Positions 6,360 through 23,731 of a DNA stretch of 44,464 nt are shown piece by piece. Numbering within the stretch: position 1 is the first letter of the stretch; every line of letters begins with the position of its first letter. The notes below the pieces were generated by a model. It saw nothing but the letters and a program-made list of their open reading frames with translations. It was not told the DNA's origin and made no database searches. Both the position numbers and the translations under genes were made by a program. The stretch is taken from positions 1 through 44,464 of the forward strand of contig DXFO01000044.1 in NCBI GenBank assembly GCA_019114415.1, read 5' to 3'. This DNA is from Candidatus Gemmiger faecavium. GTDB taxonomy: Bacteria > Bacillota > Clostridia > Oscillospirales > Ruminococcaceae.

Positions 6360-7592
6360 ATGCCTCAGCCGACCCACGCGCCGCTGCCCCGGCGCATCCT
6401 GCTGATCCACACCCGCTACCGCCTGCCCGGGGGCGAGGACGCCGTGTTTGAAGCCGAGCGCGCCATGCTGGAGCAGCACGGCCACACCGTCACCGTCTAC
6501 GAGCGCAGCAACGGGGAAGCCGCCGGCCTGTTGCAGAAGCTGCTGCTGCCGTTCCGGGCGGTATTCAGCTTCAAGGCCATGCGGGAAGTCCGGGCGCTGA
6601 TCCGCGACAACCGGATCGAGCTGGTCCACGTACACAACACCCTGCTGGTGACCAGCCCCTCGGTGCTTCTGGCCTGCCGGAAAGAGGGGGTCCCCGTGGT
6701 CCAGACGCTGCACAACTTCCGGCTGTTCTGCCCCAACGGGGTATTGCTGCGCCAGGGCAAAGTCTGCGAGGACTGCCCCCACCAAAGCCTGTTCTGCGCC
6801 GTGCGCCATGCCTGCTACCGGGGCAGCCGGGCGGAGAGCCTGGTCTGCGCGGCGGTATACGCCTTTCACCGGCTTTTGGGGACCTACAAAAAGGTGTCCC
6901 TCATCACCCCCACCGAGTTTGACCGGGACAAGCTGCTGGAATTCAACGCCCTGCGCCCGGTATTTGACCCGGCGCGGCTGTACGTCAAGCCCAACCCGGT
7001 GTCCGTCACTCTGCCCCAGGGAGCGCCTTTGCCCTTTGGGGCGCGGAAAAACCAGATCATCTATGCCGGGCGGCTGGAGGAACTGAAAGGCCTGCCCACC
7101 GTGCTGGAAGCCTGGCGGCTGCTGGCCGGCGACCCCGACGCTCCCCGGCTGCTGCTGGTGGGGGACGGCCCGCTGGAAAGCTGGGCCAGGGAACAGGCCC
7201 TGCCCAATGTGGAATTTGCGGGGCGGCTGCCTGCCAAAGAACTCCACGCCCGCATGGCGGAAAGCCTGGCCGTGGTGGCCGCCAGCCTTTGCTATGAGAG
7301 TTTTGCCCTGGTGCCGTCGGAGGCCCATCTGGTGGGAACGCCGGTCATTGCCAGCGCCCTGGGCAACGTGGGAGCCTCGGTGACGGCGGGCTTTGACGGC
7401 CTGACCTTTGCCCCCGGGGACGCCGCCGACCTGGCAAGGACGGTGCGGGCGCTGCCCGCCGCTCTGGCGGAGATGGACCCCCATGCCATCCGCCGGGCCG
7501 CCCTGGAAAAGACCGGGGACGGCAATGAGGAAAACTACCGCCGTCTGGCGGACATCTACGCCCGGGTATCCGCCGGGGACGCTGCCCGCTGA
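6360..7592 (+). CDS. Glycosyltransferase family 4
   Basis: 410 residues, GT-B fold, predicted to transfer a sugar from a nucleotide donor to a growing lipid-linked glycan at the inner membrane face. The N-domain begins ILLIHTRYRLPGGEDAVFEAE. A Cys-rich stretch (CPNG, CEDCPHQSLFC, CYRGS; about 125-160) is typical of one GT4 subgroup. The C-domain has IIYAGRLEELKG, LLLVGDGPLE and the donor-binding ESFALVPSEA with its E-x7-E spacing. The ATG at 6360 is chosen because AGAAAGGAG precedes it; an in-frame ATG at 6291 lacks such a site. First gene of the operon. Sugar specificity cannot be read. Confidence 0.92.
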   Translation: MPQPTHAPLPRRILLIHTRYRLPGGEDAVFEAERAMLEQHGHTVTVYERSNGEAAGLLQKLLLPFRAVFSFKAMREVRALIRDNRIELVHVHNTLLVTSPSVLLACRKEGVPVVQTLHNFRLFCPNGVLLRQGKVCEDCPHQSLFCAVRHACYRGSRAESLVCAAVYAFHRLLGTYKKVSLITPTEFDRDKLLEFNALRPVFDPARLYVKPNPVSVTLPQGAPLPFGARKNQIIYAGRLEELKGLPTVLEAWRLLAGDPDAPRLLLVGDGPLESWAREQALPNVEFAGRLPAKELHARMAESLAVVAASLCYESFALVPSEAHLVGTPVIASALGNVGASVTAGFDGLTFAPGDAADLARTVRALPAALAEMDPHAIRRAALEKTGDGNEENYRRLADIYARVSAGDAAR

Positions 7593-7648
7593 CCCCTACC
7601 TTAATATATAGAGAAACCACGCACCAACGACAACAAGGAGACGCCCCT

Positions 7649-8656
7649 ATGAATCAGGTGTACCGCGCGCTGCACATGCCGCCGGACCGTCTTTTCAAAA
7701 AGCTCACCGGACAAAAGGAGATCTACACCATCGCCGTCCGGCCCATCCCTGCCGAGGCTCCTCTGCCCGCCTTGGGGGAGGGCGCCTATACCCCGCTGCC
7801 CTTTGACGGGCATACCTGGTACGCCGACCCGCTGCTCTACCGTCACGGGGACGAGCGCTGGATCTTCTGCGAGGCCTTTGACCTGGCCGCCGGGCGGGGA
7901 GACATTGCCGCCATCCCTCTGCGGGAGGACGGCAGCTTCGGCACGCCGCAGACCGTGCTGCAAACAGGGAGCCATCTGTCCTTTCCCACCGTCTTTGACT
8001 GGCGGGGGGAGACCTGGATGATCCCCGAGTCCAGCGCCTGCCACACCATCGACCTGTACCGCTGCGCGGAATTTCCCGGCAAGTGGGAGCAGGCCGCCCG
8101 CTTCCCGGTGGGGTGCGAGCTGTGCGACACCATTCTGCTGGACAAGAAATCCGACGAAGTGACGCTGCTTTGCAGCGAGACCAAACCGGAGAACCAGCTT
8201 TACACCCGCTACCGCCGCTACATCCTGCGCCACGCCGCGGGGGAGGACGGCCCGGATTTTGAGCTGGAACCGGACGAGCCCTTCAACCTCCAGCACCGGG
8301 AATACGGCCTGGGCTTCCGCAACGCCGGCCCTATGTTTGAAATTGGCGGCCAGACCGTCCATCCCACCCAGGTGAGCACCAAGGTGGACTACGGCGTCTA
8401 CCTGCAATTTTTCGCCCGCCGCGGCGCCAGCGAGATCCCTCTCTGTGCGGCGGAACCCCACATCGTCGCCATCACCGGGCTGAACCGCGCCGACGTGGTG
8501 GGCATCCACACCTACTGCCGGGACGACCGGTTTGAGGTCATCGACGCCCGCTATCTCACCCGCCTGCCCAAACAGCCCGCCCCCGCCGCCAACGCCGGGG
8601 CATTCGGGGCTGAAAACAAGCCCGCCGCCCCCGGCAGCCCGGAAGCAGAGGGCTGA
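7649..8656 (+). CDS. Beta-propeller protein of the GINT1 N-domain type, glycan-cluster accessory
   Basis: 335 residues. The motifs TWYADPLLYRHGDERWIFCEAFD (split: WYADPLLYR, WIFCEAFD), HLSFPTVFDWRGETWMIPES and IDLYRC match the five-bladed propeller domain named after plant glucosamine inositolphosphorylceramide transferase 1, a GH43-related fold often found alone in bacterial polysaccharide loci. No GT-A or GT-B donor site is apparent, and its activity is not established in bacteria; it may be a transferase, a hydrolase-like enzyme or a scaffold. The last 30 residues are a disordered Ala/Pro-rich tail. ACAAGGAGACG precedes the ATG. It sits 56 bases after the first GT4 gene. Confidence 0.75.
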   Translation: MNQVYRALHMPPDRLFKKLTGQKEIYTIAVRPIPAEAPLPALGEGAYTPLPFDGHTWYADPLLYRHGDERWIFCEAFDLAAGRGDIAAIPLREDGSFGTPQTVLQTGSHLSFPTVFDWRGETWMIPESSACHTIDLYRCAEFPGKWEQAARFPVGCELCDTILLDKKSDEVTLLCSETKPENQLYTRYRRYILRHAAGEDGPDFELEPDEPFNLQHREYGLGFRNAGPMFEIGGQTVHPTQVSTKVDYGVYLQFFARRGASEIPLCAAEPHIVAITGLNRADVVGIHTYCRDDRFEVIDARYLTRLPKQPAPAANAGAFGAENKPAAPGSPEAEG

Positions 8657-8715
8657 GTATCGATTTTTTCGCGCATTTTCGCGTTTTTGTGTTTTACCCC
8701 ATTCAGGAGGCTTTC

Positions 8716-9834
8716 ATGCTGACCATTGCCATCCCGCAGCTGTACTGTGGTGCGTCCGGCCGAAAGGGCGCCTACAACCGGCAGGAGGTGGGCCTGGCCC
8801 GGGCCTTTGCGGCCCTGGGCTGCCGCGCCCTTGCCATTTACCCCGACACCTCCCTCTCCGCCCCCGAGGCCGAGGACCTGGAGCCGAATGTCCGGGTGCT
8901 CTATCTGCCCGCCCGCGCCCTGGCCGTCCACGCCTTTTACAAAAGCTGGCAGCCTTTGCTGGACGAAGAGGTGGACGCCGTCCACGTCATGGGGGACAAC
9001 TCCCTGGGCGTGCCGGGGCTGTACCGCTTCTGCCAGAAACACGGCATCTTCTTTTACAGCCAGCTGGGCGCGCTGAAAAGCGATTCCCGCACCCCTGCCG
9101 TCCGGCTGGTGATGGACCTGCTTCTGCGCCGCAACCTGGCCGTCTACCGTAAGACCCCCACCTACGCCAAGACCCCCGCCGTGGCCAAAGAGATCGAGAG
9201 CCTGGGGGTGTCCTGCGCCGGGGTCATGCCGGTGGGTCTGGACACCGCCATCATCCCCATGATCCCCGGCTCTGCCGCCGAGATCCGGGCCGAGCTGAAA
9301 CTGGACCCCGCCGCCCGGTATCTGCTGTTCGTGGGACGGCTGGACCCCTACAAGCGGCCCATGGCCCTGCCGCCCCTGATGAAACAGCTGGGGGAGGAAT
9401 GGCGTCTTATCGTCATCGGCAAAGGCTCCCAGGCCGAGGAGCTGGACGCCGCCATGAAGCCTTACGGCGACCGCTATACCCGCATCCCCGCCCTGCCCAA
9501 CACGGCGGTGCATGCCTACTACCACGCCTGCGACGTCTTTGTCAACTTAAACGACCACGAAATTTTCGGCATGAGCCTGCTGGAAGCCATGTATGCGGGC
9601 TGTCCCCCCGCCGCCCGCCGTGCGCCTGGGCCGGAGCTCATCATTGAGGACGGGGTGTCCGGCGTGCTGGCCGACACCGACGCCGCTCTGCCCGACGCCG
9701 TGCGCCGGGCCGCCGCCGACCCCGAGATGGGCATTGCCGCCCAGCGCCGGGTGAACGAACAGTTCCTGTGGGGCAACAGTGCCGAGACCGCCCTTGCCAT
9801 GCTGGAAAAGAGGGGAGTGCCCGCCCATGGATAA
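8716..9834 (+). CDS. Glycosyltransferase family 4
   Basis: 372 residues, GT-B fold. The glycine-containing N-terminal loop is CGASGRKGAYNRQEVGLARA, and the C-domain shows LLFVGRLDPYKRP, LIVIGKGSQ and NLNDHEIFGMSLLEAMYAG, with the E-x7-E donor motif (Glu in HEIFGMSLLEA). Probable role: a sugar transfer in glycan assembly on the cytoplasmic membrane face. The start is set at 8716 because CAGGAGG lies five bases before it; an upstream in-frame ATG at 8689 has none. The stop overlaps the next start by eight bases, indicating coupled translation. Donor and linkage are unknown. Confidence 0.9.
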   Translation: MLTIAIPQLYCGASGRKGAYNRQEVGLARAFAALGCRALAIYPDTSLSAPEAEDLEPNVRVLYLPARALAVHAFYKSWQPLLDEEVDAVHVMGDNSLGVPGLYRFCQKHGIFFYSQLGALKSDSRTPAVRLVMDLLLRRNLAVYRKTPTYAKTPAVAKEIESLGVSCAGVMPVGLDTAIIPMIPGSAAEIRAELKLDPAARYLLFVGRLDPYKRPMALPPLMKQLGEEWRLIVIGKGSQAEELDAAMKPYGDRYTRIPALPNTAVHAYYHACDVFVNLNDHEIFGMSLLEAMYAGCPPAARRAPGPELIIEDGVSGVLADTDAALPDAVRRAAADPEMGIAAQRRVNEQFLWGNSAETALAMLEKRGVPAHG

Positions 9835-10750
9835 CGACGCCAAGATTTTGCAGAAAGCCCGGGACCTGTACAAAGGTCTGCGGTTCGGCTGGCGGTACCG
9901 GGGCGTGGAGCTGATGGACGCCGAAGCCGGCAACGATTACATTGCCCAGTGCATCCGCTGGGGACGGCCTTTCTGCGCCGGGCGCTGCGGCGCCACCGAA
10001 ATGCGCTGCATGGCCGAATACCTGAAAAACCAGACGGAGGAGAGCGAGCATTTCTCCCCCAAGATCCGCGCCGAGATGCGGGACCTGTCCGGCATGTTTC
10101 CCACCGACGACGCCACCCTGGAGCGCTTTTGCAAGCTCTATGCCGAAGCCGCCCACGCCGCCGACCTGCTGGCCTTGTGGGACGTGGGAGCCGAGCGAGA
10201 GGTCATAAAGGGCTGCGGCCCCGAGACCCGCTTTGCCAAACTGCGGGCGCTGGAGCCTTACTACCATGCGTCGCCCTGGTCGGCGGCGCTGGCGGGCAAG
10301 CGGGTACTGGTGGTCCATCCCTTTGCGGACACCATCCGCAGCCAGTACGCCCGCCGGGAGCAGCTCTTCCAGAACCCCGACGTGCTGCCGGAATTTGCCT
10401 CCCTGCGGGTGGTGAAGGCCGTGCAGGGTCTGGGCGGGCAGGAGACCGGCTACCACAGCTGGTTCGATGCCCTGGCCGCCATGGAGGAGGAGATCGCCAA
10501 AGAGCCTTTTGACGTGGCGGTCATCGGGGCGGGGGCCTACGGCCTGCCCCTGGCAGCCTTCTGCGCCCGGGAACTGAACGCCCAGGCGGTGCAGATGGCG
10601 GGGGCCACCCAGCTTTTGTTCGGTATCCGGGGCAAGCGGTGGGACGACCATCCCATTTTGTCCCGGCTGTACAACGACGCCTGGGTCCGCCCCGGCGACG
10701 GCGAGGGCATCCGCAACAAGGATGCCGTGGAGGGCGGCAGTTACTGGTAA
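9827..10750 (+). CDS. GT-D-fold glycosyltransferase-like protein
   Basis: 307 residues. The region FCAGRCGATEMRCM (about 49-62) with Arg53 and Glu58 resembles the R-x-G-x-x-E signature of the DUF1792/GT-D fold (pneumococcal serine-rich-repeat adhesin glucosyltransferase type). Further matches are VLVVHPFADTIRSQYARRE, DVAVIGAGAYGLPLAAFCAREL and AQAVQMAGATQLLFGIRG, the usual C-terminal part. Likely a sugar transferase in this cluster, although GT-D enzymes are best known for protein glycosylation. Start overlaps the preceding stop (ATGGATAA), with GGGGAG just upstream. Family assignment is by motif memory only. Confidence 0.7.
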   Translation: MDNDAKILQKARDLYKGLRFGWRYRGVELMDAEAGNDYIAQCIRWGRPFCAGRCGATEMRCMAEYLKNQTEESEHFSPKIRAEMRDLSGMFPTDDATLERFCKLYAEAAHAADLLALWDVGAEREVIKGCGPETRFAKLRALEPYYHASPWSAALAGKRVLVVHPFADTIRSQYARREQLFQNPDVLPEFASLRVVKAVQGLGGQETGYHSWFDALAAMEEEIAKEPFDVAVIGAGAYGLPLAAFCARELNAQAVQMAGATQLLFGIRGKRWDDHPILSRLYNDAWVRPGDGEGIRNKDAVEGGSYW

Positions 10751-10788
10751 CCCCCCATATCCCAAATTTACAGAAAAGGAGCACCCCC

Positions 10789-11910
10789 ATGCGCATCCTG
10801 ATGATCGGCAGCGCTTTGACCATCAACGGCGGCATCCAGCGGTACATCCTGAACCTGCTGGGGTCCATGGACCTTGCCCGCTACGAGGTCGATCTGCTGG
10901 CCACCCCCGTTCCCGACGGAGTGCCCAGCTGCGAGGCGGAACTGCGCAGGACCGGGATCAAGCACATCTACTATATGCCCGGCAACGACAAGCAGCGGCT
11001 GTTTTTCTATCCCCGGTTTTTCCGGGAGCATTCCGGGTATGATATCATCCACTTTCACACCACCAGCAAGATCAACGCCCTGGCCTGCGGGGTCATCCGC
11101 CATGCCTGCCCGGGGGCCAGGCTCATTGTGCACAGCCACACCGTCTATCCTCCCATGACCCTGAGCTGGAAGATCGCTCACCGGTTTTACCAGCACTGGG
11201 CGGATTACTTCCTGGGGTGCAGCGTGGCGGCGGGGCGGTTCGTTTTCGGCCCGGACATCGACAAAAAGCCCAACTTTGCGGTGGCCTGCAATGCGGTGGA
11301 CAAGGCCCGTTTCCACCCCGACGATGCCGCCCGGGCGGACATCCGCGCCCGCTACGGCGTTGCCGACGACCAGCGTCTGGCCGGTTTTGTGGGGCGGTAC
11401 AGCCACGAGAAAAACCTGCTGTTTCTGCTGGATGTTTTCGCGGCCATGCGCGCAGAGGACCCGTCCTGGAAGCTGATGCTGGTGGGCGGGGGAGAGGACC
11501 AGCCTGCCGTGGACGCCAAGATCCAGGCCCTGGGCCTGACCGGCGCCGTCATCCAGACGGGGGTGCAGGAGAATGTTCCCGCCTTTATGAATGCTTTCGA
11601 CCTGTTTTTGCTCCCCAGCGAGTTTGAGGGCAGCCCGGTCACCCTGGTGGAAGCCCAGGGCTGCGGGGTCCCCTGTCTGGCATCCACCAATGTGCCGCCG
11701 GACAGCGCCGTCACCGGGCTGGTACAGTTCCTGCCGCTGGACGCGCCCTTTTCCCTCTGGGCGCAGAAGGCACAGGCCGCCGGCCGCGGCCCGCACCAGA
11801 GCCACTGGGACACGCTGGCCGCCGCCAGCTATGAACTGGGCACCGCCGCCCGCCAGATGGAACGGCTGTACGACCGTCTGGTCCCCGCAGAAAAGGAGGC
11901 CGCCCGATGA
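10789..11910 (+). CDS. Glycosyltransferase family 4
   Basis: 373 residues, GT-B fold, starting MRILMIGSALTINGGIQRYI, a classic capsule/EPS GT4 start with the GG loop. HFHTTSKIN and VHSHTVYPP follow, then AGFVGRYSHEKNL, LMLVGGGED and LLPSEFEGSPVTLVEAQGCG in the donor domain. AAAAGGAG precedes the ATG. The stop overlaps the fucosyltransferase start in ATGA, so the two are probably co-expressed stoichiometrically. It could add the galactose that the next enzyme fucosylates, but specificity is not visible. Confidence 0.92.
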   Translation: MRILMIGSALTINGGIQRYILNLLGSMDLARYEVDLLATPVPDGVPSCEAELRRTGIKHIYYMPGNDKQRLFFYPRFFREHSGYDIIHFHTTSKINALACGVIRHACPGARLIVHSHTVYPPMTLSWKIAHRFYQHWADYFLGCSVAAGRFVFGPDIDKKPNFAVACNAVDKARFHPDDAARADIRARYGVADDQRLAGFVGRYSHEKNLLFLLDVFAAMRAEDPSWKLMLVGGGEDQPAVDAKIQALGLTGAVIQTGVQENVPAFMNAFDLFLLPSEFEGSPVTLVEAQGCGVPCLASTNVPPDSAVTGLVQFLPLDAPFSLWAQKAQAAGRGPHQSHWDTLAAASYELGTAARQMERLYDRLVPAEKEAAR

Positions 11911-12845
11911 TCTATGCCGAACTGGCCGGGGGTCTGGGCAACCAGATGTTCCTTTACGCCTTTGCCCGGGCCCTTGCCCTGCGCACCGGTGAGGAAGTGA
12001 CGCTGCTGGACCGGCAGGACTGGAAGTCCGGCGCCCCCGCCCACACCCACTGTGCCCTCAACGCCCTGCGCATTTCTCCCCAGGTGCACATCAGGGCGGA
12101 CGCCGCCTTTGCCAAGCACCATCTGCCCCTGCAGAACACCCTGAAAGTCCTGATGATCCGCCGGGAACAGAAAGGCGGCATGATGGCCCAGAACTGGAAA
12201 CCCTTTGAAGCAAAAATGGCTCCCATGCTCAACGCCCTGGGCCTGCACTTCGTCACCGACGGCTACATTCCCTGCCGCCGGGGAAAGGGCTTTCATTTCC
12301 CGCCGGACCTTCTGGCCTGGGGGTATTTCCAGAGCGAAGCCTACTTTGCCGACCATAAAGATATCATCCGGGCGGAACTGCGCCCGGTGAACGCCCCCGA
12401 CCCCGACCGGGCGGCGGCCATCGGGGCGGCAAAGTGTCCCGTCTGCCTGCATCTGCGCCGGGGCGACTACCAGAACCCCGAAAACGCCGCCCTGCAGGTC
12501 TGCACCCCGGCCTACTATGCCCGGTGCTGCGCCCTGGTGAAAGAACAGTGGCCGGAAGCGACCCTCTTTGTCTTTTCCGACGACATTCTTTGGGCGCAGG
12601 ATCATCTGGACACGGCGGGCCTGCCTGCCGTCTACCTGACGCCGGGCAGCGCGGCGGGGGACCTGGCCCTGATGCAGATGTGCCGGCATTTCATCATCAG
12701 CAACTCGACCTACAGCTGGTGGGCCCAATACCTGGGGGATGCCCCGGACAAACAGGTCTACGCCCCCGACCGCTGGTACGCCAACGGCAAGGAAAGCGAA
12801 CTCTATCTGCCCGGCTGGACGCTGGTGTCCGCCGCCGGGCAATAA
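11907..12845 (+). CDS. GT11 alpha-1,2-fucosyltransferase
   Basis: 312 residues. Expected to transfer fucose from GDP-fucose to O-2 of a terminal beta-galactose, making an H-type Fuc-alpha-1,2-Gal end. All GT11 signatures are in order: GGLGNQMFLYAFARAL at 8-23, the GDP-fucose-binding HLRRGDY at 182-188, FVFSDD at 221-226 and ISNSTYSWWAQYL at 264-276. Length is typical. It starts within the stop codon of the preceding GT4. No gmd or fcl gene for GDP-fucose is present in the window, so the donor must come from genes elsewhere or from a fucose salvage route. Close relatives include intestinal bacterial fucosyltransferases; regiochemistry alpha-1,2 is the family norm. Confidence 0.93.
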   Translation: MIYAELAGGLGNQMFLYAFARALALRTGEEVTLLDRQDWKSGAPAHTHCALNALRISPQVHIRADAAFAKHHLPLQNTLKVLMIRREQKGGMMAQNWKPFEAKMAPMLNALGLHFVTDGYIPCRRGKGFHFPPDLLAWGYFQSEAYFADHKDIIRAELRPVNAPDPDRAAAIGAAKCPVCLHLRRGDYQNPENAALQVCTPAYYARCCALVKEQWPEATLFVFSDDILWAQDHLDTAGLPAVYLTPGSAAGDLALMQMCRHFIISNSTYSWWAQYLGDAPDKQVYAPDRWYANGKESELYLPGWTLVSAAGQ

Positions 12846-12881
12846 ACCGCAAGGAGTAACACAAGGACAGGAGGTGCCGCC

Positions 12882-13892
12882 ATGCGGCGGGAAGGCAAGA
12901 TCCGGTTTTCCGTGGTGATACCGGTATACAATGTGGAAAAATACCTGCCCCTGTGCGTGAAAAGCGTGGTGGAGCAGGCAGGGGACCCCGACTGGGAGTG
13001 CATCCTTGTTGACGATGGCTCCACCGATACCTCGGGGGCCATGTGCGACACCTTTGCGGCGGAATGCCCCGGGGTCATTGCCCTGCACCAGAAAAACCAG
13101 GGCCTGGCCGGGGCACGCAACACCGGCATTGCCGCGGCGACAGGGGAGTGGCTGCTGTTTCTGGACAGCGACGACGAATGGGCCCCCGGTATGCTGGAAA
13201 ACCTGCGCGCCGCTCTGGAGGCCCACCCCGGCTTTGACTGGTATGTGGCCCGGTACTTATCCCTCAACGAGGCCGACGGCACCCTGTATGAACCCACCGA
13301 CGTCCGGTTCGTCCCCGGGGATTTCGAGAGCGACGACTACGCCGCCCGGGTGGAACGGCTGTACGACAGCGCCCACTGGTCGGTGTGGAAGTACTGCCTG
13401 AAACGTCAGTTTTTGCTGGACAGCGGGGTGGAGTTCTGGCCGTCGGTGGTCTGGGCGGAGGATTACCCCTTCGACCTGCTGCTTCTGCGCCGGTGCCGGA
13501 AACTCTGCTTTCTGGACATGGTCATGACCCATTACCGGGAAAACCGTGCCGGCAGCCTGATGAACTCAAACCTCCCCAAGCATTTCACCGGCATCCTGGC
13601 GGCGCTGCGGGGCTTTGCCCAGGTCTTTGCGGAAGGGCAGTGCCTGCCCGCCCAGCGCAATGAGATCCTGCGCCGCACCGCCAACGCTTTCTGGCCGGAA
13701 GCCCGTGCCGCCGCCTGCAGGGACAAGGCGGTGCGCCGTGCCTGCGCCCCGCTCATCGACCAGTGCCGCCCGCTGTTTGACTACGGCGACCAGTGCCGGG
13801 GCCGGGCGGACTGGGTGCTGTTCCGCCTGCTGCTCAAAGTCTTTGGGGCAAGGTTTGCCCTGTGGTTCTGCGGGCATCTGAAAAAAGGCTGA
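12882..13892 (+). CDS. Glycosyltransferase family 2
   Basis: 336 residues with a GT-A domain: FSVVIPVYNVEKYLPLCVKS at 9-28, DDGSTDTSG (Asp44, Asp45), the acceptor/UDP motif GLAGARNTGIAAATGEW and the metal-binding DSDDEW at 95-100. The C-terminal half (about 200-336) is a helical extension common in capsule GT2 enzymes. GGACAGGAGGTG precedes the start with good spacing. Transfers one sugar during repeat-unit assembly; donor unknown. Confidence 0.92.
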   Translation: MRREGKIRFSVVIPVYNVEKYLPLCVKSVVEQAGDPDWECILVDDGSTDTSGAMCDTFAAECPGVIALHQKNQGLAGARNTGIAAATGEWLLFLDSDDEWAPGMLENLRAALEAHPGFDWYVARYLSLNEADGTLYEPTDVRFVPGDFESDDYAARVERLYDSAHWSVWKYCLKRQFLLDSGVEFWPSVVWAEDYPFDLLLLRRCRKLCFLDMVMTHYRENRAGSLMNSNLPKHFTGILAALRGFAQVFAEGQCLPAQRNEILRRTANAFWPEARAAACRDKAVRRACAPLIDQCRPLFDYGDQCRGRADWVLFRLLLKVFGARFALWFCGHLKKG

Positions 13893-14106
13893 TCCCCCCG
13901 CTCCGGCTTTTTATCCGCCGCCCCGGCCTTTGCCCGCCGGGCGTGCCGGGCGCGCCCTCTGCCCCATCGGGCCGTAAGGCCCGCGTCCCCCAGTTTTTCC
14001 GCCGGGACAGGGGCGTGACCGAAATGACCGAAAACCATCTTTTTGCCGTCAGACCGGCATTTCCCGCAAACAGACCAAACTCTCTCACAGGAAAGGGCTT
14101 CTGTTC
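13893..14106 (+). other. Leader-like gap before the flippase gene, with hairpins
   Basis: This 214-base gap is the only large one inside the operon. It carries CGGGCC-GTAA-GGCCCG at 13968-13983, a six-pair hairpin with a GNRA tetraloop, preceded by further GC-rich self-complementary words. AGGAAAGGG lies before the flippase ATG. It may tune expression of the downstream half of the operon; no U-tract follows the hairpin, so it is not a clear terminator. Confidence 0.4.
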
Positions 14107-15648
14107 ATGAGGACCAAACGCACCATCATCAACCTGCTGTACACCCTGGGCTCCAGCTTTGTGCTGCTTTTGCTGGGGCTGGTCGCCCGGGCACTGTTTG
14201 TCTCCAACTTCGACATCACCATCCCCGGTACTTCCACCGTCATCGAGCAGCTGTTCAGCGTCTTTTCCATCGCCGAGTTCGGGGTGGGCAGCGTCATCAG
14301 CTACCGGCTGTATGAACAGATCGCCGCCAAAGATGTGGACAAGATCAGCAAATACATGTCGCTGTACAAGTGGACCTACCGTCTTATCGGCGGGGCCATC
14401 TTTGTGCTGGCGGCCATCTTCTGGTTTTTCCTGCCCCTGCTCATTGTGGAGGCCAACACCGACTGGGACGCCGTCCATGCCATCTATATTTTGCAGACGC
14501 TGTCCACCCTGTCCAGCTATTTCCTGGTCACCCGGCGCCTGCTGTACACCTGCACCCAGCAGGGCTATGTCTGCACCCGCATCGACTTTGTCTTTAACGT
14601 TCTCACCTATCTGGCGAGAATTTACATCTCGTTGAATTATGCCAACAATTACATTCTGTATTTCGGCATCACCATTGTGTTCAACACGCTGGCAAACGTG
14701 GTGGTGGCCTGGCGCTACCGCCGGGATTTCCCCGAAGTCCACGACGTCCGGGTCTCCTGGGCGGACTTCAAGGAGCTGGGGCTCTTCCGGGATCTGCGGT
14801 ACTATCTGGTCCACCGGGTGTCCAACGCCATCTATGGCACCTCGGACAGCCTGGTCATGACCCGCATGCGGGGCTCCGCCAGCGTCACCTATCTGGGCAA
14901 CTACTCCAACGTTTCCTCCTCCGTCACCAACATCGGCAACAAGATCCTGGACAGCTTCGCCGCCGCCATCGGCAACATCGTCTACGACAAGACCGCCGAG
15001 GCCGACGACCACCAGAAAAAGGTCTTCTGGAGCATGGACCTGTTCAGCTATCTCTTCGGCAGCTTTGTGGCGGTGGCCTATTTCTGCCTGTTCCAGCCCT
15101 TCATCACGGTATGGCTGGGCAGCCAGTGGCTGCTGCCCATGTCCTACGTGTTCTGGTTCTGCTTAAATGAGTACGTGGGCTGGAACCACCGGATGCTGGG
15201 CTCCTACCGGGCCGTGCTGGGCCATTTTGAGGAGGACCAGTGGTTCATGGTGGCCAGCGGCGTCTCCAACCTGGTACTGAGCTTTGTGCTGGTCATCCCC
15301 TTCGGCCTGCCCGGCGTCATCGCCGCCACCGTGTTCGCCCATTGCCTCATGTGGTTCGGCCGGGCCAAGGTGGTGTTCCGCCGGTTCATGCGGGGCTGCG
15401 GCGGACGGTATGTGCGCATCCAGCTTACCCATGCCCTCACCCTGGCGGTGGAAATGGCCCTGACCTGGTGGGTGTGCAGCCTGCTGGGCACCGGCTGGCT
15501 GGGCATCATTGCCCGGGCGGTGGTGGTGTGCATCCTGCCCAACGCCATGAACCTTGTCTTTTACGGCTTTACCAGCGACGCCGAATACCTGCGCGGCCGC
15601 GCCCTCCAGCTGTGGCAGCGCATCTCCGCCCGTCGGAAGGAGGTCTGA
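14107..15648 (+). CDS. Wzx-like lipid-linked oligosaccharide flippase
   Basis: 513 residues, about twelve to fourteen transmembrane helices, beginning MRTKRTIINLLYTLGSSFVL, the usual basic start of polysaccharide-transport (MOP superfamily) proteins of Firmicutes capsule loci. FSIAEFGVGSVISYRLYEQIA and YGTSDSLVMTRM are family-like stretches. Expected to flip the undecaprenyl-linked oligosaccharide across the membrane. The gene ends in AGGAGGTCTGA, which doubles as the ribosome binding site of the GT6 gene six bases later. No Wzy polymerase is recognisable nearby, so the exported unit may be non-polymeric or polymerised by a distant enzyme. Confidence 0.9.
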   Translation: MRTKRTIINLLYTLGSSFVLLLLGLVARALFVSNFDITIPGTSTVIEQLFSVFSIAEFGVGSVISYRLYEQIAAKDVDKISKYMSLYKWTYRLIGGAIFVLAAIFWFFLPLLIVEANTDWDAVHAIYILQTLSTLSSYFLVTRRLLYTCTQQGYVCTRIDFVFNVLTYLARIYISLNYANNYILYFGITIVFNTLANVVVAWRYRRDFPEVHDVRVSWADFKELGLFRDLRYYLVHRVSNAIYGTSDSLVMTRMRGSASVTYLGNYSNVSSSVTNIGNKILDSFAAAIGNIVYDKTAEADDHQKKVFWSMDLFSYLFGSFVAVAYFCLFQPFITVWLGSQWLLPMSYVFWFCLNEYVGWNHRMLGSYRAVLGHFEEDQWFMVASGVSNLVLSFVLVIPFGLPGVIAATVFAHCLMWFGRAKVVFRRFMRGCGGRYVRIQLTHALTLAVEMALTWWVCSLLGTGWLGIIARAVVVCILPNAMNLVFYGFTSDAEYLRGRALQLWQRISARRKEV

Positions 15649-15654
15649 CCCGCC

Positions 15655-16524
15655 ATGTCCAAGCCTACGGTAGCCCTTTTGTACATCTGCACCGGCAAAT
15701 ACACGGTGTTCTGGCCGGACTTTTACAAGACGTTCCGGCAGAATTTTCTGCCCGAGTGTGATAAAACCTTTTTTGTCTTTACCGACGCGCCGTCCATCGA
15801 GTTCGACACCGAACCCGACGTGCGCCGCATTTACCAGAAAGCCCTGGACTGGCCGTACAGCACCCTCAAGCGGTTTGAGATGTTCCTGACCCAGGAGGAT
15901 GCCCTGAAAGCCTTTGACTTCCTGTTTTTTGCCAACGCCAACCTGCTGTGCGAGCAGGTGGTGACGGCGGAGGAATTTCTGCCCCGCACCGAACAGGGGG
16001 AGGTGCTTCTGATGGTCCAGCAGCCGGGCTTCTGGGACAAGACGCCGCCCTTTTACTCCTACGACCGCAACCCAAAATGCCGGGCCTACATCCCCTACAA
16101 CTGCGGGCGGGACTATGTGTCCGGTGGGCTGAACGGCGGCACGGCCCCGGCCTTCCTGGCCCTGTGCCACACCCTGGCCAGGCGCACCGACGACGACCTG
16201 GCCGACGGCGTCATTGCCCTGTGGCATGACGAGAGCCAGCTCAACCGCTACGTTGCCGAGCTGGACCCCGCCGAATACCGTCTGCTCACCCCGGCCTACT
16301 GGTACCCGGAGGACTGGCACATCCCCTTTGAGCAAAAAATTACGGTGCGGGACAAATCCAAGTGGATCGACATGACCGCCGTCAAGGGCAAAAAGCCGGA
16401 ACTGGGCTTTGTGGCCCGCAAGTGGGATGCCTTCTGCCAGAACTACCTGCCCTTTGTCCTGGCCGTGCGGGACACCCTGCTGCTCAAACATCTGCCCCGG
16501 TACAAGGCCGGACATAACCCCTGA
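15655..16524 (+). CDS. GT6 (ABO blood-group family) alpha-1,3-GalNAc/Gal transferase
   Basis: 289 residues. Expected to add GalNAc or Gal in alpha-1,3 linkage to the galactose of an H-type acceptor. Matches to the bacterial GT6 family, including Bacteroides ovatus BoGT6a as I remember it, run the whole length: ALLYICTGKYTVFWPDFY (7-24), FFVFTD (39-44), WPYSTLKRF (66-74), FFANANLL (91-98), DYVSGGLNGG (153-162), WHDESQLNRY (190-199) and LTPAYWYPEDW (211-221). NAN at 94-96 replaces the DXD of the mammalian enzymes, the mark of metal-independent bacterial GT6 proteins. Glu193 is the likely catalytic residue. Ser156-Gly157-Gly158 falls where ABO enzymes choose their donor; Gly at the third place is the A-type (GalNAc) state. 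Donor choice is inference. Confidence 0.93.
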   Translation: MSKPTVALLYICTGKYTVFWPDFYKTFRQNFLPECDKTFFVFTDAPSIEFDTEPDVRRIYQKALDWPYSTLKRFEMFLTQEDALKAFDFLFFANANLLCEQVVTAEEFLPRTEQGEVLLMVQQPGFWDKTPPFYSYDRNPKCRAYIPYNCGRDYVSGGLNGGTAPAFLALCHTLARRTDDDLADGVIALWHDESQLNRYVAELDPAEYRLLTPAYWYPEDWHIPFEQKITVRDKSKWIDMTAVKGKKPELGFVARKWDAFCQNYLPFVLAVRDTLLLKHLPRYKAGHNP

Positions 16525-16551
16525 CATCCACGCCCCGAAAGGAGGGCTTTC

Positions 16552-18333
16552 ATGCAGGCAACCAAACGACATATCGGCCCCGAGCACCTTCTTGCGGCGC
16601 TGCTGATCTTGCTGGCGGCGGCCTCGGTGGTCAAGACGCTCTTTGCGGGCCTTGAGATCGACGAGGAATACGCCCTGTCCCTGGGCTGGCGGCTGATCCA
16701 GGGGGATACCCTGTTCTACACCATGTGGGAGCCGCACCAGCTTTCCGCCCTGGCGGACGCCGCCCTCATGTGGCCGTACTGGGCCATCACCGGCACCACC
16801 ACCGGTATTTTGCTGTATATGCGCATCGTCACCCTGGTGCTGAAAGCCCTGCTTTCCATCTGGTTTTACCGCACCATGCGCCGCACCCTCACCCCGCGCA
16901 CCGCTTTTCTCACCGCCCTGGCCCTGTTTGTCTACACCCCCAAATGGTTTTTGGCGCCGGATTACATCTCCCAGCAGTTCCACTTTACTTTGGCGGCTTT
17001 CCTCTGTTTTTACGGCTATTACGGGGACGGCGGCAAAAAACTGTGGCGGCTGGTGCCGGGGGGCATCTTCCTCAGCCTCAGCGTGCTGGCCTTCCCCCAA
17101 AGCGCCTTTGCCGCCCCGGTCTACCTGCTGGGAATGTTCCTGCTGGGCCGCCGCGCCGGGGAAAAACGCGTCCTGGGCCTGCCCGCCGGCATGCTGGTCA
17201 CCTTTCTGACCTGCCTGGCCTGCGCCGGGGTTTTCCTTGTGTATGTTTTGCAGGATATGTCCCTGCGGACCCTCATTGCCCGGGCCACCCTCATCCTCAA
17301 CGATCCCCAGTATGACTTCACCTTTGCCGAGCGCCTGGCTCTTTTGGGCAGCCAGGCCGCCGACGTGGGCAAGTTTTTGGCCAAGCCGGGCGGCGTGGCC
17401 CTGGCCGTGGTGGGCGCGGGCATTGCCCGGGACATCTACCTGCGGCAGGAACGCCCCATCCGCAACATCCGGTACTGGCTGAACATTCTGTTTGCCCTGT
17501 TCTCCGCCGCCACGGTGCTGCTCTGCCTGGCCCGCGCTTTGCGGGATTCCAGCCTGGACGAGCGGTATTTCTGCCCCGTGCTGGTCATTGCGGGCATCTG
17601 GTTCTTCCGCTCCGGCCGGGGCACCGCCCGGGAGGGGCTGTTCTGGCTGGGATACCTGCCCGGCGTGGCGGCCTACCTGTTCATTCTGCGGTCCACCCTG
17701 CTGGGATTTTCCGCCACCTTCATGTACCTGACCTGGCCGGCAGTGTGCGCCGTGCTGGCTCTGGCCCTGCAGACCCGGGCCGCCGAAAACGGCGAGACCG
17801 ACCCCTGCACCCCCTATGCCCTGGACGCCGACTGGGCGGACGGCATCCTTTTGTCCCTGCTGGGCTTTTTGGTGGTATGCCGTGCTTTCCTGGTGCTGAC
17901 CACCGGCTGGAAGCCCGCCAACGTGCTGGACACCGAGCTGACCTACCTGTCCGACGGTCCCGCCGCCGGGACCTGGGCCGACACCGAGACCGCCGACATG
18001 TACTATGCCCTGGAGCGCGCCCTGGACCCCTGCGCGGGCAAAAAGGTGCTGCTTTCCACCGGCGACGTGCACGGCCTGGCCTTTTTGATGGCGGACGGCA
18101 CCCTGGAGACCGCCCAGGCATCGGTCATTTCCTCCACCGACAGCGACAGCCGGTTTGCCAACTACTATCTGGAACTGCCGGAGAAGGAACCGGACGTCAT
18201 TATCTACAACGACGACTGCGTCCGCGACCTGGATGAGTTCCACCAGTGGCTGGAAGAGAATTTCACCATCACCGACCGGCAAGCGGTGCAGTACGGCAGC
18301 GCTTCTCTGGAAGTATTGACGGTGGCGCACTGA
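16552..18333 (+). CDS. GT-C-type membrane glycosyltransferase, GT39/GT83-like
   Basis: 593 residues with about ten to twelve transmembrane helices in the first 420 residues and a soluble C-terminal part (about 450-593). GLEIDEEYALSLGWRLIQGD (33-52) places acidic residues Asp37-Glu38 in the first external loop, followed by LFYTMWEPHQLS, the pattern of polyprenyl-phosphate-sugar-using GT-C enzymes. It would act on the outer face, decorating the exported glycan. An O-antigen-polymerase role cannot be excluded but the DE-x-Y loop argues for a transferase. GAAAGGAGGGC precedes the ATG. Last gene before a strong terminator. Confidence 0.75.
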   Translation: MQATKRHIGPEHLLAALLILLAAASVVKTLFAGLEIDEEYALSLGWRLIQGDTLFYTMWEPHQLSALADAALMWPYWAITGTTTGILLYMRIVTLVLKALLSIWFYRTMRRTLTPRTAFLTALALFVYTPKWFLAPDYISQQFHFTLAAFLCFYGYYGDGGKKLWRLVPGGIFLSLSVLAFPQSAFAAPVYLLGMFLLGRRAGEKRVLGLPAGMLVTFLTCLACAGVFLVYVLQDMSLRTLIARATLILNDPQYDFTFAERLALLGSQAADVGKFLAKPGGVALAVVGAGIARDIYLRQERPIRNIRYWLNILFALFSAATVLLCLARALRDSSLDERYFCPVLVIAGIWFFRSGRGTAREGLFWLGYLPGVAAYLFILRSTLLGFSATFMYLTWPAVCAVLALALQTRAAENGETDPCTPYALDADWADGILLSLLGFLVVCRAFLVLTTGWKPANVLDTELTYLSDGPAAGTWADTETADMYYALERALDPCAGKKVLLSTGDVHGLAFLMADGTLETAQASVISSTDSDSRFANYYLELPEKEPDVIIYNDDCVRDLDEFHQWLEENFTITDRQAVQYGSASLEVLTVAH

Positions 18334-18361
18334 CGCTCCCGCCCCCATACCGGCACCATTT

Positions 18362-18400
18362 CTCCCCCGCAGCAAAAAACAGGCTGCGGGGGAGTTTTTT
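18362..18400 (+). terminator. Rho-independent terminator of the first glycan operon
   Basis: CTCCCCCGCAGC and GCTGCGGGGGAG form a perfect 12-bp stem with a 9-base A-rich loop followed by six T. It ends the operon 29 bases after the GT-C stop codon. Confidence 0.93.
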
Positions 18401-18405
18401 GTGCG

Positions 18406-18434
18406 CTGACAAACGGTGCGGGATGTGGTATCAT
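18406..18434 (+). promoter_or_regulatory. Promoter of the second glycan operon
   Basis: CTGACA and TATCAT are 17 bases apart, directly after the preceding terminator and about 60 bases before the GT2 start. The same GGTATCAT -10 context recurs before the glycerate kinase gene at 30570. Confidence 0.7.
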
Positions 18435-18494
18435 ATAAGGGATTGGGGGGCTTTTTGGCCGCCCGGTGCATCCTGACAAAGGGAGGCTTTTGCC

Positions 18495-19292
18495 TTGGAG
18501 CAGAAATTCTTGATTTTTATTCCGGCCTACAACTGTGAGAACCAGGTCCCCCGGGTGCTGGATCAGCTTCTGGACCCCCAGGTCCGGGAATTTGCGGGGG
18601 AGTGCATCGTGGTGAACAACCGTTCCACCGACGGCACCGAGGACGCGGTAAAGGCCTGGATGGCCGCTCACCCCGAGGCCCCGGTGCGCCTTTTGCGCAA
18701 CGACCAGAACTACGGCCTGGGCGGCAGCCATAAAGTGGCTTTCGGCTATGCCATGGAGCACGGCTATGACTATCTGGTGGTGCTGCACGGTGACGACCAG
18801 GGGGACGTGCGGGATCTTCTGCCCCTGGTCAGGTCCGGCGAGTACAAACAATACGACTGCTGTCTGGGTTCCCGCTTCATGCGGGGCAGCCGCATCAAGG
18901 GGTACAGCGCCCTGCGTATCTTCGGCAACTACGGATTCAACTGGCTGTTCAGCCTGGTGACCCTGCACAAGATCACCGACCTGGGCAGCGGGCTGAACCT
19001 CTACCGGGTGGCATCCCTGAAAAACCGGTACTACATCAAGTTCCCGGATACCCTGTATTTTAACGACTGCATGATTTTGGCCCAGTGCCATTACAAGCAG
19101 AAGATGCTGTTTTTCCCCATCAGCTGGCGGGAGGAGGACCAGGTGTCCAACACCAAGCTGACCAGCTTTGCCATGAGCCTGCTGCGCATGTGCGGCCAGT
19201 ACCTGACCGGCCACAAAAAGTTTGTGGAGCAGGAAATGCGCTCGAAGATCATCGACGATTACAGCTATCAGGTGGTCGCGTCCAATCTGTGA
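18495..19292 (+). CDS. Glycosyltransferase family 2, dolichyl-phosphate-mannose-synthase-like
   Basis: 265 residues, GT-A fold without membrane helices. FLIFIPAYNCENQVPRVLDQ begins the domain, VVNNRSTDGTED holds the nucleotide-binding Asp residues, and VVLHGDDQGDVRDL is the metal site, in the arrangement of polyprenyl-phosphate hexose synthases. SRFMRGSRIKGYSALRIFGN and DLGSGLNLYR fit that subgroup. It may make a polyprenyl-phosphate sugar for the GT-C enzyme upstream, which is an inference. The start is TTG at 18495, chosen because GGGAGG lies seven bases before it and no ATG or GTG fits. Confidence 0.88.
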   Translation: MEQKFLIFIPAYNCENQVPRVLDQLLDPQVREFAGECIVVNNRSTDGTEDAVKAWMAAHPEAPVRLLRNDQNYGLGGSHKVAFGYAMEHGYDYLVVLHGDDQGDVRDLLPLVRSGEYKQYDCCLGSRFMRGSRIKGYSALRIFGNYGFNWLFSLVTLHKITDLGSGLNLYRVASLKNRYYIKFPDTLYFNDCMILAQCHYKQKMLFFPISWREEDQVSNTKLTSFAMSLLRMCGQYLTGHKKFVEQEMRSKIIDDYSYQVVASNL

Positions 19293-19325
19293 CCTTTTGC
19301 CCGTTCTGATAAAAGGAGGCACTTT

Positions 19326-20360
19326 ATGAAAGTTCTCGTCACCGGCGCCGCCGGCTTCATTGGCGGCCAGCTCTGCCATGCCCTGTGGAAGCGGGGCGAT
19401 ACCGTCATCGGCATCGACAATTTCTCCTACGGCAATCTGGACAACCTCCACTTCGACGACCACGATTTCGCCGCCGATGTGCTGCGCATGGACATCCGCG
19501 ACCGGGAGGAACTGCCCGCCCTGTTTGAGCGGGAGCATTTTGACGTGGTGTACAACATCGCGGGCATCGCGCCCCTGCCCGACTGCCAGAGCGACCCGGT
19601 GGAGGCCGTGTCGGTGAACACCATGGGCCTGGTGAACCTGCTGGAACTCTGCCGCCGCACCGGCGTCAAGCATCTGGTCCAGGCGTCCACCAACGCCATG
19701 TACGAAAACGAGACCGAGTTCCCCACCGTGGAGGATAAGTTCAATCCCCCCACCCTCATTTACCCCAACACCAAATACTGCGGCGAGCAGTTCTGCCGCA
19801 GCTTTGCCGACACCTACAACATGAACGTCACCTGCCTGCGCTTTGCCAACGTCTACGGCCCCCACATCGACTGCCTGCGCAAGCAGCCGCCCTTTGTGGG
19901 CTACATGATCCGGGAGCTGTACTACGACCGGGTGCCCGAGTTCCACTCCGACGGCAACCAGCGCCGGGATTATATCTATGTGGATGACCTCATCGACCTG
20001 GCCCTGCGGGTCACCGACCGCAAGGGCTTTGACGCCGTCAACGTGTCCAGCAACACCAACTACTCGGTGCGGGAGCTGTACGCCATCGCCTGCCGCCTGA
20101 TGCACAAGGACATCGAGGCCAAATACTGGGATACCGCCCACTACTGGGCCAAGTACCCGGAACTGTACGGCGGCGCCTACGGCATCCGCCCGGAGATCCT
20201 CGACCACGAGGTCAACAAGTATTCCCTGTGCGACAACGCCCACGCCAAAGAACTGTACGGCTGGCAGCCCCAGGTCTCCATTGAGGAGGGCCTGGCCCGT
20301 GTCATTGAGGCCGAGTGCGCCATGCTGGCCGCCCGGGACGCCGCAGCCGCAAAGGAGTGA
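19326..20360 (+). CDS. NAD-dependent nucleotide-sugar epimerase/dehydratase (extended SDR)
   Basis: 344 residues. GAAGFIGG (8-15) is the NAD-binding glycine motif, DNFSYG the adenosine-ribose contact and MDIRD the next conserved segment. The catalytic pair is Tyr146 and Lys150 in YPNTK, with Ser121/Thr122 before it. CLRFANVYGP and QRRDYIYVDDL are typical of UDP-glucose 4-epimerase-like enzymes. Product sugar cannot be told. AAAAGGAGG precedes the ATG. It lies between a GT2 and a nucleotidyltransferase, so it probably supplies or modifies the activated sugar used by this operon. Confidence 0.9.
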   Translation: MKVLVTGAAGFIGGQLCHALWKRGDTVIGIDNFSYGNLDNLHFDDHDFAADVLRMDIRDREELPALFEREHFDVVYNIAGIAPLPDCQSDPVEAVSVNTMGLVNLLELCRRTGVKHLVQASTNAMYENETEFPTVEDKFNPPTLIYPNTKYCGEQFCRSFADTYNMNVTCLRFANVYGPHIDCLRKQPPFVGYMIRELYYDRVPEFHSDGNQRRDYIYVDDLIDLALRVTDRKGFDAVNVSSNTNYSVRELYAIACRLMHKDIEAKYWDTAHYWAKYPELYGGAYGIRPEILDHEVNKYSLCDNAHAKELYGWQPQVSIEEGLARVIEAECAMLAARDAAAAKE

Positions 20361-20369
20361 TTTACCCCC

Positions 20370-21125
20370 ATGTCCAAGCTACACCTTGTCATGCCCATGG
20401 CCGGGCGGGGCAGCCGCTTTTTTGAAAACGGCTTTGTCTGCCCCAAGCCCCTCATTGAGATCCACGGCAAGCCCTTTTTCTACTGGGCGGCCCGCAGCAT
20501 CGAGAAAAACATCGAGCTGGACGGCATCACCTTTGTGGTGCTGAAAGAGCATCTGCGGGACTTTGACATCGAGCGCCGCATTCGGGAATACTGGCCCGAC
20601 GCCCGCATCGTCGCCCTGGACGACGTCACCCCCGGGGCGGCGGTCACCTGCCAGAAAGGCTGCGAGGACCTGCCCGACGGTGTGCCGGTGCTGTTCAACG
20701 ACTGCGACCATCTCTTCCTCTGCTCCGCCTTTGACGACTTCTGCCGGGAAGGCAATTTTGCCGCAGGGCCTGACGGGGCACTGCTGACCTTTGCCTCTGA
20801 CTCCCCGGCGTACAGCTACCTGCAGTACGGGGAGGACGGCCTGGTCCGCCGCACGGTGGAAAAAGAAGTGGTCAGCCATGACGCCATCTGCGGGGCCTAC
20901 TATTTCAAGGACAAGGCCACCTATCTGGAGGCCTGCGCCAAATATCTCACCGTCTGCCAGTACAAGGAATTCTTTGTCTCCGGCGTGTACAACGTGCTGG
21001 CCGGGGAGGGCAAGGCGGTCCGCGGCTTTGCCACCGACCTGCACCTGCCCTTCGGCACCCCCGCCGAGTACGCCCTGGCGGAACAGCCGGAAAATGCTGC
21101 AGGATTTGAGGCGCTGGACCAATGA
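20370..21125 (+). CDS. Sugar-phosphate or polyol-phosphate nucleotidyltransferase
   Basis: 251 residues with the nucleotidyltransferase start LVMPMAGRGSRFFENGF and the lysine motif PKPLIEIHGKPFFYW. LFNDCDHLF carries the metal-binding acidic pair, and EKEVVSHDAICGAYYFKD is the usual product-side region. It should join a sugar phosphate (or similar) to an NTP with release of pyrophosphate. AAAGGAG overlaps the end of the epimerase gene. The stop overlaps the next start in ATGA, which ties it to the kinase-fusion protein. The donor nucleotide is unknown; capsule relatives of this small type often use CTP. Confidence 0.87.
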   Translation: MSKLHLVMPMAGRGSRFFENGFVCPKPLIEIHGKPFFYWAARSIEKNIELDGITFVVLKEHLRDFDIERRIREYWPDARIVALDDVTPGAAVTCQKGCEDLPDGVPVLFNDCDHLFLCSAFDDFCREGNFAAGPDGALLTFASDSPAYSYLQYGEDGLVRRTVEKEVVSHDAICGAYYFKDKATYLEACAKYLTVCQYKEFFVSGVYNVLAGEGKAVRGFATDLHLPFGTPAEYALAEQPENAAGFEALDQ

Positions 21126-23059: not shown

Positions 23060-23077
23060 GAATCTCACGAGGTTTTT

Positions 23078-23650
23078 ATGGACAACAAGCAATTCGCCGC
23101 CGTGCTGGTGGACCTGGACGGCACCCTCTTTGACACGGTGACGGTGAACGCCGCCAGCTACCGCCGCGCGTTGGAGGAAGTGGGCTTTACCGTCACCGAC
23201 GAATACTACGCCAAATGCTGCAACGGCGGGCATTACAAGAGTTTTCTGCCCCCGCTCATGGGCGGCGACCCCGACCCGGCCCTGCTGGAACGGGTCCACG
23301 ACCGGAAAAAGGAGCTGTACTCCGCCTGTCTGGGAGCCGCCCGGAAAAACGAGGCCCTTTTTGCCCTGCTGGCCGCCATGCGGCCCACCGCCCGGCTGGG
23401 CCTGGTCACCACCGGCAGCCGGCAGAACGCCACCGAGATTTTGGACTATTTCGGCTGCCGGGACTGGTTTGAGGTGATCCTGACCTCGGAGGATGTTGTG
23501 CACAACAAGCCCGACCCGGAGGGGTATCTCCGGGCCATGGAACTTCTGGGGGCAACGCCGGAGACCACCATGATCTTTGAGGATTCCTCCACCGGCCTTG
23601 CCGCCGCCCGCGCCACCGGCGCGGCGGTGTTTGTGGCGGACCAGTTCTGA
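23078..23650 (+). CDS. HAD-superfamily phosphatase/phosphomutase-like
   Basis: 190 residues, slightly short for the family. VLVDLDGTLFDTVTVN has the nucleophile Asp and the second Asp (DLDGT). The cap helix region follows, then VTTGSRQNATEIL with the motif II Thr/Ser, LTSEDVVHNKPDPEGYLRAM with the motif III Lys, and MIFEDSSTGLAAARATGA with motif IV acids. It resembles beta-phosphoglucomutase and phosphoglycolate phosphatases. In this operon it probably dephosphorylates or isomerises a sugar phosphate in the donor pathway. ACGAGG precedes the ATG 18 bases after the kinase-fusion gene. Confidence 0.9.
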   Translation: MDNKQFAAVLVDLDGTLFDTVTVNAASYRRALEEVGFTVTDEYYAKCCNGGHYKSFLPPLMGGDPDPALLERVHDRKKELYSACLGAARKNEALFALLAAMRPTARLGLVTTGSRQNATEILDYFGCRDWFEVILTSEDVVHNKPDPEGYLRAMELLGATPETTMIFEDSSTGLAAARATGAAVFVADQF

Positions 23651-23684
23651 GCCGGGCGCACGGCAAAGTCAAAAGAATACAAAG

Positions 23685-23731
23685 CGGCCCCGCCGCGGGA
23701 AGAGATTCCTGCGGCGGGGCCGTGGTTTTTT
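23685..23731 (+). terminator. Strong terminator between convergent genes
   Basis: CGGCCCCGCCGC and GCGGCGGGGCCG make a perfect 12-bp stem with a 14-base loop and a TGGTTTTTT tail. It closes the second glycan operon. The minus-strand gene ends at 23730, right at the tail. Confidence 0.9.

Follow-up and report, generated by a model that had tools for sequence, protein, structure and literature searches.

Glycosyltransferase family 6 (GT6) includes the human ABO enzymes, whose A and B forms differ in four residues (PMC4202792), and a group of bacterial relatives. According to the same source, Escherichia coli O86 employs the GT6 enzyme WbnI together with the family 11 (GT11) enzyme WbwK for its O-antigen, and Helicobacter mustelae BgtA, another bacterial GT6, makes the blood-group-A determinant; with the histo-blood-group A synthase BoGT6a of Bacteroides ovatus, these examples mean that systems of the kind considered here are already known. 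A count published in 2014 put the number of bacterial species with GT6 at 36, which are Gram-negative 'with a single exception' (PMC3961637). Here we analyze a GT6 gene (15655-16524, + strand) that follows a GT11 gene (11907-12845, + strand) in one operon of Candidatus Gemmiger faecavium (Ruminococcaceae, phylum Bacillota); the window is the whole 44,464-nucleotide stretch of contig DXFO01000044.1 (assembly GCA_019114415.1), which corresponds to contig C36 in a genome of 2.55 Mb that is 92% complete. The locus resembles that of E. coli O86 in that GT11 and GT6 would serve one surface glycan, and differs in that the O86 product is a Gram-negative lipopolysaccharide O-antigen; H. mustelae is likewise Gram-negative, both likenesses are drawn from literature descriptions, and Gemmiger is called Gram-positive solely from its taxonomic placement in Bacillota. 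The literature searched (titles and abstract openings, with most subscription papers outside its coverage) contained no report of GT6 or blood-group glycans from Gemmiger or Subdoligranulum, and the two features that appear new, a near-core presence in a Bacillota genus and a swapped GT6 cassette, were absent from it.

Profile searches confirmed both family assignments, which had been proposed in an earlier note on this DNA. The GT6 protein scored 67.3 bits against PF03414 (cut-off 25) and 260 bits against NCBIfam NF041524 (cut-off 250). By sequence it matches BoGT6a (4ayj) with an E-value of 8.8e-56 and human GTA (1r7t) with one of 5e-17. Its AlphaFold model (mean pLDDT 74, with residues 125-155, part of the acceptor loop, poorly modeled) ranked BoGT6a structures first (E=2.5e-22) and human ABO structures next, and the closest named relative is the GT6 of Gemmiger gallinarum DSM 109015, also Bacillota, which is 90% identical and lies in a syntenic operon. 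The GT11 protein scored 91.6 bits against PF01531 (cut-off 23.9) and contains HLRRGDY, which we take to be a motif of the fucosyltransferase family. GT6 is rare in this phylum, being present in 2 of 398 genomes sampled across it (source genome included), which agrees with the earlier note's remark that known bacterial GT6 enzymes are mostly discussed in Gram-negative species and the Bacteroides group. A sample of 396 genomes from the family yielded eight with GT6, seven of them Gemmiger and the eighth (G273) with two TGA codons inside the match. Within Gemmiger the pair is near-core: GT6 occurs in 29 and GT11 in 30 of 35 genomes, each in 18 of the 19 high-quality ones. One genome (G012) has GT11 without GT6, the GT11 lying ~2.3 kb from a contig end, and neither gene was found in G014 (99% complete).

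The two genes are closely linked: of the 29 Gemmiger genomes with both, 28 have them on one contig with a gap of 1572-3462 bases, and the other, G023, has them on separate contigs. Among five GT6 loci from outside the genus, four have an adjoining GT11 homolog (Phocaeicola L096, Prevotella L097, cyanophage S-CAM9 L098, and Bacillota L091). These linkages support a functional coupling of the predicted enzymes, and we put the probability that GT6 acts on the fucosylated product of GT11 at about 0.55. The same linkage could reflect a shared polysaccharide operon only, with GT6 and GT11 decorating different parts of the repeat. GT6 is not always accompanied by GT11, since none of the nine loci at which Gemmiger genomes carry a second GT6 (L082-L090) contains a GT11 match and no GT11 homolog was found in the fifth outside locus (L092), and in Gemmiger itself a GT2 glycosyltransferase gene (GT2a, 12882-13892, + strand; PF00535, 128 bits) and that of a 513-residue membrane protein (FLIP, 14107-15648, + strand) sit between the two. 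Set against this are the direct adjacency in four of the five non-Gemmiger loci and the activity of known bacterial GT6 enzymes of such type on Fuc-alpha-1,2-Gal (PMC4202792), and a division of labor between separate parts of the glycan seems to us quite improbable.

A finer comparison with BoGT6a was based on the contact table of PMC3961637. The window GT6 keeps Thr10, Tyr13, Trp66, Thr70, Arg73, Asn95, Ala96, and Gly157, as well as Trp189, His190, Asp191, and Glu192 (WHDE), Lys231, and motif residue Asn97, and thus most donor contacts. The Asn-Ala-Asn at 95-97 replaces DXD by NXN, a trait of the metal-independent bacterial branch to which the protein would belong. In the window protein, Ser takes the place of Asn69, Thr134, and Ala155 of BoGT6a, and Gln that of His122; His239 and Arg243 fall outside the aligned part. 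Of the replaced residues, His122 and Thr134 contact GalNAc bound in the acceptor site of BoGT6a (same source); Trp189, a third acceptor-site residue, is retained. Set beside characterized enzymes, as the earlier note had suggested, the protein matches BoGT6a and human GTA overall, shares NXN and WHDE with BoGT6a, and departs from it at His122 and Thr134. From its residues it is probably a working enzyme, for which a human acceptor cannot be assumed. GalNAc is favored as donor on the sole ground that Gly157 (268 in the human enzyme) is kept, as it is in every aligned Gemmiger GT6; as a means of deciding between A and B, the donor residues were set aside, given that Gly157 favors GalNAc and does not decide.

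The altered acceptor site raises the alternative that GT6 and GT11 work on the same glycan, with GT6 using another acceptor sugar, to give a fucosylated alpha-GalNAc or alpha-Gal glycan unlike A or B. Either the window protein or the type II allele described below has another residue at position 122, 134, or 189. Of the 36 alignment columns with a fixed difference between the two types, 22 lie in 115-134 and 211-230, regions that were picked post hoc. Gln and Ser could still form hydrogen bonds, though, and the adjacency of GT11 and GT6 in distant lineages points to a fucosylated acceptor; we judge a different acceptor sugar to be rather unlikely.

GT11 requires GDP-fucose. The source genome carries genes predicted to supply it, consecutive on contig C31: gmd (521 bits) and manA (145 bits) exceed their cut-offs, fcl scores 478 bits, just short of its 500, and a manC-like gene (201 bits) stays below its own. 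Across the genus, 27 of the 30 genomes that have GT11 contain a full or partial fcl, and none of the five that lack it does (Fisher p=1.7e-4); for gmd over the cut-off the counts are 26 of 30 and one of five (p=0.006); this association is descriptive, the 35 genomes being related and some of them incomplete.

The earlier note had gone on to predict an A/B-type end on the product. The families, their linkage, and the operon speak for it, and a human A/B-like end is plausible; it is not established, and the same goes for the alpha-1,2 linkage of the fucose, for the acceptor and donor of GT6, and for the terminal position of the branch. Host mimicry and anti-A/B antibody induction, which the earlier note named as possible consequences, would be hypothetical. 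A product bound by human anti-A or anti-B is less likely than GT6 acting on the GT11 product. In addition to the replacements at positions 69, 122, and 134 and the GT6 loci in which GT11 was not found, several observations weigh against an A/B-type product. Position 134 of type II GT6 is Pro and position 189 is Phe, Cys, or His, and the GT11 family includes the alpha-1,3 enzyme HhFT2 (PMC4202792). No PF02397 initiating transferase was found among the scanned operon genes; three are located elsewhere in the source genome. Three genomes with GT11 (G002, G003, and G030) yielded no strong gmd or fcl, and the source genome no galE over the curated cut-off, where an assembly gap is likely because 30 of the 35 genus genomes have one. 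Finally, the multi-pass membrane protein encoded directly behind GT6 (GTC, 16552-18333, + strand), which may be GT-C-like and was so labeled by inspection, may cap the product of the operon with an extra sugar.

Comparison of 29 operon copies, each from a different genome with one genome per species, revealed that divergent GT6 alleles occupy one syntenic slot and are shared across species. Type I, with Gln122, Ser155, and Trp189, accounts for 15 copies including that of the window; type II, with Pro134 throughout and in most cases His122, Ala155, and either Phe or Cys at 189 (L078 being an exception), accounts for nine; and the remaining five are of a form IIb (His122, Pro134, Ala155, Trp189). 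A description as two clean alleles was dropped as too simple, type I not being shown as a clade and five rows being IIb. For the 27 type I/II pairs whose flippases share 84% identity or more, identity is 51-56% in GT6 and on average 62% in GTC, versus averages of 76-93% for the other genes; the corresponding means for 34 pairs of the same type are 86% in GT6 and 76% in GTC. Four type I/II comparisons at the DNA level gave 79-94% identity through the flippase, a drop at the start of GT6, and 42-71% within it; identity is back to 84-91% in GT2b in the three comparisons reaching that gene, and a type I/I control (L071, L056) showed 80-90% in GT6. Types I and II are separated by 36 fixed differences in 231 columns, 22 of them in the 40 columns of 115-134 and 211-230 (chosen after looking), and the densest 20-column window holds 12, a number reached in 0 of 5000 permutations. 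Misassembly does not explain the swap, since two single-contig genomes differ in type (G026, type I; G034, type II).

Nine Gemmiger genomes carry their second GT6 away from the operon, and eight of these copies are of a third type (His122, Thr134, Cys155, Trp189), the ninth (L089) being type I; GT2-like genes lie close by in eight of the nine loci. Other slots of the operon have been rearranged as well, as GT2a has no match in L079 and is located behind GT6 in L080.

Phylogenetic analysis placed type II GT6 in one clade, on a starred branch of 99 (100, also starred, using operon copies alone), and type I requires two changes on the GT6 tree. On a tree built from five further genes of the operon (L073, which lacked data, left 28 of the 29 rows), type II needs six changes, of which starred branches force four, and the grouping of all type II rows as one clade is rejected (approximately unbiased test, p=5e-12). 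L059 and L065, a pair chosen after the operon tree was known, are sisters on that tree (starred, 100), and for GT6 a sister relationship between them is rejected (p=3e-64). Counted on the same 19 rows, the changes in GT6 type number one on the GT6 tree, two for GTC, three for FLIP, three for GT2b, four for GT11, and five for GT4c, so that the fit to GT6 type declines with distance from GT6, as expected from replacement of a short stretch. This fit, together with L054 versus L071 (GT6 53% and GTC 75% identical), indicates that GTC is co-inherited with GT6 in part and not strictly. Form IIb gave no sign of swapping; the operon tree includes four of its five rows and groups them as a single clade.

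The gene swapped in this way is probably responsible for the glycan tip, and the pattern is an ABO-like exchange between species; the exchange is visible in the sequences themselves, and differing products of the alleles are predicted. Human ABO belongs to the same family and also has alternative alleles at one locus; unlike it, the Gemmiger alleles differ at about half of their residues, keep the residue equivalent to human 268 constant (Gly157), and are seen between species. We tentatively propose, at somewhat less than even odds, that Gemmiger has its own bacterial equivalent of ABO: a fixed slot behind GT11 at which species exchange ancient GT6 alleles that differ in their acceptor pockets, along with much of GTC, and at which diversified blood-group-related tips are kept by host antibodies, lectins, or phages. 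The swapped alleles offer a bacterial parallel to ABO variation and a natural comparison for the role of acceptor residues in the GT6 family. If the product is A/B-like, a gut genus of Bacillota, one that also turns up in human fecal sequence, would provide blood-group-like antigen from beyond the Gram-negatives. This would be relevant to natural antibodies against A and B and to the binding of viruses by gut bacteria.

In the mechanism that we envisage, the operon would assemble a lipid-linked oligosaccharide inside the cell and then export it to the surface. The GT4, GT2, and related enzymes would build the core; GT11 would transfer L-fucose from GDP-fucose, most likely alpha-1,2 onto galactose; and GT6 would then attach an alpha-1,3 sugar to the same galactose, GalNAc being likelier than Gal, to form an A/B-type branch. 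A MOP-fold flippase would turn the lipid-linked product outward, where GTC, with GT2b, may attach one further sugar. GT6 and much of GTC would act as a replaceable cassette moved between species as divergent alleles, and the glycan tip therefore probably differs between species. The flippase of this scheme is FLIP. A Pfam match was found in none of ten orthologs scanned, the window protein also having none, and further sequence searches were likewise uninformative; its AlphaFold model (mean pLDDT 76) has MurJ as top match (E=1.6e-7), then WzxE (3e-5), with MATE transporters lower, and the modeled fold identifies it as a MOP-fold flippase of the MurJ/Wzx type, in agreement with the flippase claimed by the earlier note. 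For GTC, which has no Pfam match in the window, the search of ten orthologs gave one weak PMT_2 match (E=0.51), and sequence searches nothing useful beyond it.

The operon consists of 15 co-directional genes on the + strand (~6360-23650, gaps of at most 214 bp), and thus extends well beyond the interval of the earlier note (11907-16524); its placement of both genes in one operon with other glycosyltransferases is borne out by this arrangement, by a terminator-like stem-loop behind the last gene (23684-23723, + strand; 18 pairs, then a T run), and by synteny across the genus. Chance is excluded because gene order and identity are kept across Gemmiger. Compared with BoGT6a, the setting differs in the Bacillota host and in the flippase and GT-C-like genes beside GT6. 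Upstream of GT11 lie the GT4 glycosyltransferase GT4a (6360-7592; PF13692 78 bits, PF00534 77 bits), the first gene, and a GINT1_N-domain protein (7649-8656; PF24793 59 bits), both syntenic, followed by GT4b (8716-9834; PF00534 84 bits), a GT-D-like protein (GTD, 9827-10750; PF22882 20 bits, under the cut-off of 27), and GT4c (10789-11910; PF00534 82 bits). Behind GTC are the GT2 glycosyltransferase GT2b (18495-19292, start codon uncertain; PF00535 63 bits and a weak, sub-cut-off match to polyprenyl-phosphate-GalNAc synthase), an NAD-dependent sugar epimerase/dehydratase (EPI, 19326-20360; PF01370 175 bits, with galE as best NCBIfam match at a sub-cut-off 124 bits), a nucleotidyltransferase-like protein (NTP, 20370-21125; PF12804 20.5 bits, sub-cut-off), an LPG-synthase-TM domain membrane protein (LPGTM, 21122-23059; PF03706 59.5 bits), and a HAD-like hydrolase (23078-23650; PF13419 98.5 bits). 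The last three (20370-23650) might together make an unusual activated sugar or alcohol.

Phage records with a GT6 match numbered 71, of which three were examined. In cyanophage S-CAM9 (L098, 2210-3702) GT6 adjoins a GT11-like gene, and an NTP and HAD pair resembling that of the operon is also near; in phage records S-8S53 and S-8S55 a GT11 annotation lies beneath the GT6 match. The other two examined records are labeled 'Bacteriophage sp.' and come from human feces. L094 (MT836157, Mexico) carries homologs of FLIP, a type II GT6, and GTC; 280 of the 282 positions of its GT6 agree with the G006 protein, and 271 of 276 positions in the GT6 of L095 (MT838506) agree with the second GT6 of G006. 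The idea that phages carrying GT6 mediated the swap was rejected, as both records look like fragments of the Gemmiger chromosome. The locus occurs in people, because MT836157 is a human fecal record with homologs of all three genes. Several named Gemmiger records carry names suggestive of poultry. The operon is flanked by glycoside hydrolase genes of families GH3, GH2, and GH115, at 680-3922 and 4028-5950 on the - strand and at 37079-39772 on the + strand.

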